A stretch of DNA of 64,000 nt from Tepidanaerobacter syntrophicus (GTDB lineage: Bacteria > Bacillota > Thermosediminibacteria > Thermosediminibacterales > Tepidanaerobacteraceae): NCBI RefSeq assembly GCF_001485475.2, contig NZ_DF977003.1, positions 310,001 through 374,000 on the forward strand, given 5' to 3'. The position numbers and the translations under genes are program-made. The notes under the pieces were generated by a model that saw only the letters and a program-made list of their open reading frames with translations, searched no databases and was not told the DNA's origin. Below are positions 56,852 to 64,000 of the stretch, piece by piece (position 1 is the stretch's first letter; each line of letters opens with the position of its first letter).

Positions 56852-57043
56852 ACAAAACAATCCCTGCTGTGTGCGTGTAAGCTGACATAGTAAAGAGCCA
56901 ACACTCTGAGAAAGGGAGTCCGGACTCTGAATGTTGAGTATATGCCCTCGAGAGAGGGAAATACAAGAGACGTTCAGGAGGACACCCACCTGGTAAGCCG
57001 GGTCTCTATTTACGGTCAGTAAACACGGCATGGTGGGGTTTAT
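56852..57043 (+). ncRNA. ssrS: 6S RNA
   Basis: About 190 nt with no open frame. The 5' segment CCCTGCTGTGT (56862-56872) pairs with the 3' segment ACACGGCATGGTGGGG (57023-57038), and CTGAC with GTCAG just inside. This gives the closing stem of a long, bubble-containing rod as in 6S RNA, which mimics an open promoter and sequesters SigmaA holoenzyme. Internal hairpins such as CCAACACTCTGAG with CTCTGAATGTTG are visible. In Bacillus subtilis one 6S gene also lies between aspS and the tcdA homolog yrvM, which supports the call. A promoter ends 8 nt upstream. Boundaries are approximate. Confidence 0.82.
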
Positions 57044-63102: not shown

Positions 63103-63131
63103 TTGACAAACTTATCTAGCTGTTTTATAAT
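63103..63131 (+). promoter_or_regulatory. Consensus promoter of the serA T-box transcript
   Basis: TTGACA (63103-63108), 17-bp spacer, TATAAT (63126-63131): perfect match. Transcription start near 63138. Confidence 0.85.
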
Positions 63132-63137
63132 ATTCTA

Positions 63138-63362
63138 AAATTTAGTTAGTAAAAACTATGAAGGGGAAAATTAAAGATATTTTCTATAGAGAGTCAGTGG
63201 ATGGTGCAAACTGACAGAAGATCTTTATTTCCGCCCCGGAGTTGTTGGCGATGAGCCAAACCGGTTTTAACCGTTAGATTTATAGAGGGTTGCATATTTT
63301 GGGAAACTGAAATAGGGTGGCAACGCGGTAATTTCCGCCCCTTGTACTGGGCGGTTTTTTTA
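63138..63362 (+). ncRNA. T-box leader, specifier TCC (serine), upstream of serA
   Basis: T-box AGGGTGGCAACGCGG is at 63314-63328, and its TGGC fits the GCCA end of tRNA-Ser. The terminator pairs CCGCCC (63335-63340) with GGGCGG (63349-63354), followed by a run of T. The Stem I terminal loop GTCAGTGGATGGTGCAAACTGAC begins near 63193. The specifier region reads ATT-TCC-G-CCCCGGAGTT, with TCC at 63230-63232. Low serine charging would raise serA expression, which matches the pathway. Confidence 0.93.
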
Positions 63363-63415
63363 TTATATATTAATTTGGACTATTTTATATATTTAAGGAG
63401 AGGTGCACGGTGGTG

Positions 63416-63529
63416 ATGAATTTTTTTATTAATGTGCTGGCAGCACTCGAGTCAGCATTGAATAATGAGAATTTATTTGGAGCAGGAATAGCTGCGGCAG
63501 AAAGAATTTTTGCAAAAGGGGAGATATAA
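63416..63529 (+). pseudogene. Remnant of a class V aminotransferase (serine pathway), 37-codon ORF
   Basis: The ORF translates to MNFFINVLAALESALNNENL and then FGAGIAAAERIFAKGEI. From INVLAAL onward it resembles the extreme C-terminus of AGXT/SerC-type class V aminotransferases (pattern VLAAL-x-ALE-x-AL, then GAG-x-AAA). Such a gene normally sits between a serine T-box and serA in Clostridia. It has a strong AAGGAGAGGTG site and its stop abuts the serA ATG, so it may still be translated and couple serA. An in-frame internal deletion that joined the first few codons to the last 30 is inferred. It could instead be a genuine small leader ORF. Confidence 0.55.
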
Positions 63530-64000
63530 ATGAGGGTTTTAGTAAGCGATGATCTTGCTCAAGAGGGAATCGACATATTAAAAAAAGAATTTGATGTAGA
63601 TGTTAAGACAAAATTAAGCGAAGAAGAATTAATGGAAATAATTCCTAATTATGATGCACTTGTTGTCCGCAGTGCGACTAAAGTTACAAAAAATATTATA
63701 GAAAAAAGCAATCTGAAGGTTATCGGAAGAGCGGGTGTTGGTGTTGACAACATAGATGTTGATGCTGCAACGCATAAAGGAATTTTGGTAGTTAATGCTC
63801 CTGAAGGAAATACAATAGCGGCCAGCGAACACACTATTGCACTTCTCATGTCTGTTGCACGAAATATACCCGCTGCTGTTATGAGCCTTAAAAATAAAAA
63901 ATGGGACAGAAAAAGTTTTGTTGGAATAGAGGTTAGAGGAAAAACCCTTGGAATTGTAGGCCTTGGGAGAATTGGCAAAGATGTAGCAGCTAAAGCTATT
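63530..64000 (+). CDS. serA: D-3-phosphoglycerate dehydrogenase, N-terminal part (cut by window edge)
   Basis: First enzyme of phosphorylated serine synthesis. 157 residues are visible and open to the end of the window. The substrate-binding domain (MRVLVSDDLAQEGIDILKK, LVVRSATKVT, GRAGVGVDNIDVDAAT, VVNAPEGNTIAASEHTIAL) leads into the NAD loop GIVGLGRIGKDVA near residue 141. ATG start directly after the TAA of the 37-codon ORF. Controlled by the serine T-box upstream. Whether it has the C-terminal ACT domain cannot be seen. Confidence 0.95.
   Translation, partial: MRVLVSDDLAQEGIDILKKEFDVDVKTKLSEEELMEIIPNYDALVVRSATKVTKNIIEKSNLKVIGRAGVGVDNIDVDAATHKGILVVNAPEGNTIAASEHTIALLMSVARNIPAAVMSLKNKKWDRKSFVGIEVRGKTLGIVGLGRIGKDVAAKAI

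Follow-up and report, generated by a model that had tools for sequence, protein, structure and literature searches.

A remnant of a class V aminotransferase gene directly upstream of serA in Tepidanaerobacter syntrophicus, probably left behind after displacement by serC

The locus described here is best compared with two branches of the class V aminotransferases. The first is the AGXT type (AGXT/serine-pyruvate/serine-glyoxylate, PF00266) encoded 5' of serA, and the second is SerC (TIGR01364), which by family assignment is a phosphoserine transaminase. The class V enzyme MJ0959 of M. jannaschii acts as a phosphoserine transaminase. A sequence-only reading of a 64,000-nucleotide stretch of T. 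syntrophicus DNA, the whole of which is called the window below, had proposed that a short open reading frame (ORF) in front of serA is the stub of a class V aminotransferase gene. Our analysis gives a probability of roughly 93% to the interpretation that this ORF is a pseudogene remnant, left after serC had displaced the class V aminotransferase upstream of serA.

The serine operon at the end of the window is ordered as promoter, T-box leader, terminator, short ORF and serA, all on the + strand. A sigma-70-type promoter (TTGACA-17-TATAAT, 63103..63131) matches the consensus at 12/12 positions and is followed by the T-box leader (63149..63345), which scored 109.9 bits (E 2e-23) with the Rfam covariance model RF00230 and thereby lies above the gathering score of 93. 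By sequence reading, the intrinsic terminator of the T-box, a GC stem with a T-run, covers 63335..63361. In the RF00230 alignment, inspected by eye, the specifier position reads UCC and the bulge reads UGGC, which fits a G73 discriminator; serine is for this reason the likely amino acid, and the T-box probably responds to uncharged tRNA-Ser. The serA gene (63530..64000, running past the window; L019:2530-4101) encodes a full-length D-3-phosphoglycerate dehydrogenase of 523 aa (687.6 bits to TIGR01327, cut-off 454 bits). Between terminator and serA, the Shine-Dalgarno sequence (SD) AAGGAGAGGTG at 63395..63405 forms a strong duplex with the 16S tail (-11.6 kcal/mol), in agreement with the good ribosome-binding site first noted for this ORF. 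Its spacing fits GTG 63410/63413 better than ATG 63416; the ORF is 39 codons long if counted from GTG 63410 and 37 if counted from ATG 63416. The stop codon TAA (63527-63529) directly abuts the serA ATG at 63530 (TAAATG), and serA has an SD of its own, AAAAGGGGAGA, located inside the ORF at 63514..63524 (-8.9 kcal/mol in duplex with the anti-SD). Elsewhere in the window a 6S RNA was found at 56858-57043 on the + strand (RF00013, 89.9 bits).

To identify the stub we aligned it with intact genes of the same order. Residues 5-37 (from 63428) align to residues 348-380 of an intact class V aminotransferase, with 47-59% identity and E-values of 1e-6 to 2e-10 against nine intact genes; against the gene of the sister genera the identity is 57-59% and the score 40-43 bits. 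Examples are G021 (59%, E 1.9e-10) and G007 (58%, E 1.7e-9), and the top score was 43.1 bits, compared with a best of 23.1 bits among 1000 shuffled stubs. The stub alone gave no match in Pfam or NCBIfam scans, presumably because it is too short. The intact gene, of about 382 aa, lies directly 5' of serA in three genomes of sister genera (G005, G007, G011) and in six genomes of a second family of the order (G014-G017, G020, G021), and a T-box was confirmed ahead of it in G005, G007, G011, G014 and G021. The T-box of the window is matched by one 5' of the aminotransferase-serA pair in these relatives and by one 5' of serA in the relic genomes, which bears out the suggestion that the stub occupies the place of such a gene. 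The nearest solved relatives of the intact protein are serine-glyoxylate and serine-pyruvate aminotransferases. In both position and sequence AAGGAGAGGTG is the counterpart of the SD in the intact relatives, GGGAGAGTGG, and it is evidently that of the former aminotransferase gene. As SD and start region both agree with those of the intact gene, the stub is an in-frame fusion of the former start with the former end: the relic (63410..63529, + strand) joins the start region to the last ~33 codons. By sequence homology it is thus what is left, still in frame, of a class V aminotransferase of the AGXT/serine-pyruvate type. It shares with this family the sequence from residue 5, the position between T-box and serA and the ribosome-binding site, but of ~382 codons only ~33 are kept and the PLP-binding domain is gone, so that neither a complete fold nor the PLP-binding lysine is present in its 37-39 codons. 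A genome search found no intact ortholog of the aminotransferase in T. syntrophicus.

Relics of the same gene, decayed independently and in different ways, were found in related genomes, which confirms the proposal that the stub is a deletion remnant. Tepidanaerobacter sp. EBM-38 (G001) and T. acetatoxydans Re1 (G002, a single-contig assembly) have kept the start, an inner piece of about residues 158-182 and the C-terminus. In G006, residues 1-73 and 340-380 are left, interrupted by frameshifts and by a TAA at codon 13; in G008 the start of the N-terminal part and residues 326-382 are left, and a frameshift and a TGA break the frame. No recognisable relic was detected by tblastn in G004 or G012; in G009 serA lies at a contig edge and the region upstream is outside the view of the assembly. 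In the relic clade 138-360 nt separate the terminator from serA, compared with 1171-1196 nt in genomes with an intact gene. Because the breakpoints differ between relics, the deletions were most simply separate events that took place after the lineages had split. Against plain decay, differences between relics are still richest at third codon positions (e.g. 6/3/15 for the window genome and G008), a pattern that we read as selection before inactivation, although a count over 32 codons cannot tell this from later constraint. As the excess is common also to the plainly broken relics, it is uninformative on constraint in the stub. In G006 the start region of serA is present on two contigs, C239 and C280 (L156, L155), with small differences, which suggests a strain mixture in the bin.

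Some properties of the stub in the window speak against plain decay: its frame is clean, its SD is strong and its stop codon adjoins the start of serA. They would also fit a leader ORF that is translated and kept by selection because termination at TAAATG re-initiates ribosomes on serA. Coupling may have been an ancestral trait, since in relatives with the intact gene the stop codon of the aminotransferase either overlaps with the serA start codon or lies very close to it. We nevertheless consider a kept leader ORF unlikely, as in G001, G002, G006 and G008 the frame opened by the old start runs for 6-18 codons and then ends 128-285 nt short of serA. An ORF reaching from the old SD to the serA start is therefore not conserved among the relatives: it is broken in these four, and in G004 and G012, which carry no recognisable relic, it was not found. 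All tested genomes of the relic clade, those lacking a relic included, have an SD of serA itself (-8.9 to -11.7 kcal/mol) at the corresponding position. Folding of the RNA around the stub-serA junction gave no strong stem that would sequester the serA SD and need stub translation to be opened. Further, the stub has Ser instead of the Met conserved in the LEM motif, and one intact frame among four independent relics is unremarkable. The idea that the stub survives through translational coupling to serA, put forward in the sequence-only reading, thus finds no support in the relatives, where the frame is broken or absent and serA has its own SD. Coupling through TAAATG in the window genome alone is possible. 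Distinctly unlikely, in our view, is the more specific version in which the remnant would be re-used in the window species as a translated leader ORF of 37-39 codons, that is, an exapted, cis-acting pseudogene tail keeping serA translation coupled to the T-box message.

If the stub is a remnant, the strain should use another transaminase, as the sequence-only reading pointed out, and this was indeed found. A serC gene on contig C6 of the window genome scored 500.4 bits with TIGR01364, against a curated equivalog cut-off of 443.6 bits. The gene is present in 8 of the 22 genomes of the order (G000, the window genome, and G001, G002, G004, G006, G008, G009 and G012) and absent from the other 14; seven of the eight copies lie above the curated cut-off and the G006 copy is in two pieces at contig ends. 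In the SerA tree the eight serC genomes form one clade (support 100/99), and in the SerC tree, which leaves out the split gene of G006, the remaining seven also form one clade (100/100). Contamination of the assembly can be set aside, since serC of the window genome is part of a contig of 395 kb and its neighbours are conserved in G001 and G002. None of the serC loci has a T-box; the second pathway step would therefore have left T-box control while serA stayed under it. SerC, found in every genome of the relic clade, is by family assignment the enzyme for the step presumed of the lost gene, which we take to have encoded a phosphoserine transaminase on the basis of its family and operon context. 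The stub does not derive from SerC, which belongs to another class V branch and is encoded at another locus, without a T-box. In the genus of the window a gene for a HAD-IB phosphatase-like protein (L020:4678-5463; TIGR01490, 166 bits), a candidate phosphoserine phosphatase, is oriented divergently to serC; an assignment as serB was rejected, as the score was 43.1 bits against the serB cut-off of 144.15, and a match adjoins serC only in this genus. Just 3' of serC in G008 a segment (L160:6418-6626) matches the Rfam family Enterococcus sRNA 1300 (RF02862, 75.8 bits).

The closest SerC outside the clade is that of G241, from a family outside the class, with 69% identity and moderate support (83/84). 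This grouping with an outside bacterial family makes horizontal acquisition of serC by the clade the most likely and simplest reading. Conversely, serC could have been ancestral in the order and lost everywhere outside the clade. This would be in line with the presence of serC in G025, of the same class, and with the 12 genomes of the phylum in which SerC and the old aminotransferase occur together. We find it very improbable, as the SerC of G025, the only other one in the class, is just 49% identical to that of the clade, compared with 69% for the family outside the class; moreover the SerC of the clade nests among the outside group, and several parallel losses would be needed.

The 12 genomes with both genes come from a phylum sample of 398 genomes, searched for close relatives of serC and of the AGXT-type gene, in which 99 have serC and 180 the AGXT-type aminotransferase; from these counts, which depend on the E-value cut-offs, 45 genomes with both are expected (Fisher p 2e-15, uncorrected for relatedness). 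Their rare co-occurrence makes the two enzymes look like alternatives for the same step. A second AGXT-type aminotransferase, with 37-38% identity to the serA-linked one, is encoded in G004 (L152, G004:C36:8242-9321) and G002 (L153, G002:C1:1753812-1754888) and is absent from the window genome. Three genomes of the second family (G013, G018, G019) have no serC, no close relative of the AGXT-type gene and no more than a weak match to serA; these may have lost the phosphorylated serine pathway.

Hardly credible is the last alternative, that the stub is a chance ORF or the misassembly of an intact gene: the silence of the profile libraries on the stub would fit it, but the alignment score is far above that of any shuffle, and an assembly error is excluded because independently assembled genomes, one of them a single contig, also carry relics of this gene.

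Taken together, we favour a history in which the ancestral operon would have consisted of a serine T-box, a class V aminotransferase gene of the AGXT type and serA. A canonical serC would then have entered the ancestor that Tepidanaerobacter shares with three neighbouring genera, at another chromosomal place and without a T-box. With serC acquired the old aminotransferase would have become redundant, and deletions, frameshifts and stops would have ruined its gene in several lineages, in each of them separately. The stub of the window genome would have arisen when ~345 codons were lost in frame, which brought the start region next to the final ~33 codons. That the 3' tail persists may be due mainly to the serA ribosome-binding site inside it and to incomplete decay; the presence of the serA SD in the tail suffices to explain why deletions did not extend through it. 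Throughout, serA would have remained under T-box control and been translated from its own SD.

Our results also bear on serine synthesis in the genus. In the genome paper of T. acetatoxydans Re1, serine was listed among the amino acids made by alternative pathways, perhaps via glycine hydroxymethyltransferase (PMC4374699). The same genome has serA and a serC that scores above the curated cut-off, and these two genes close a gap in the serine pathway of Tepidanaerobacter. Our literature search returned nothing usable on a replacement of the aminotransferase by serC in this genus, nor on a class V enzyme as phosphoserine transaminase. In the clade and its relatives the replacement of one enzyme by another can be followed as a natural series: sister genera have the old gene in intact form, several genomes have fragments of it and others have lost it.

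In comparison with known systems, the locus is a well-supported, ordinary pseudogene remnant and not a new kind of system. It corresponds to non-orthologous gene displacement with a pseudogene remnant, since here likewise a new enzyme would have been gained, the old one decayed and the pathway kept. It differs from the usual case in that several stages of decay are visible side by side in one small clade.
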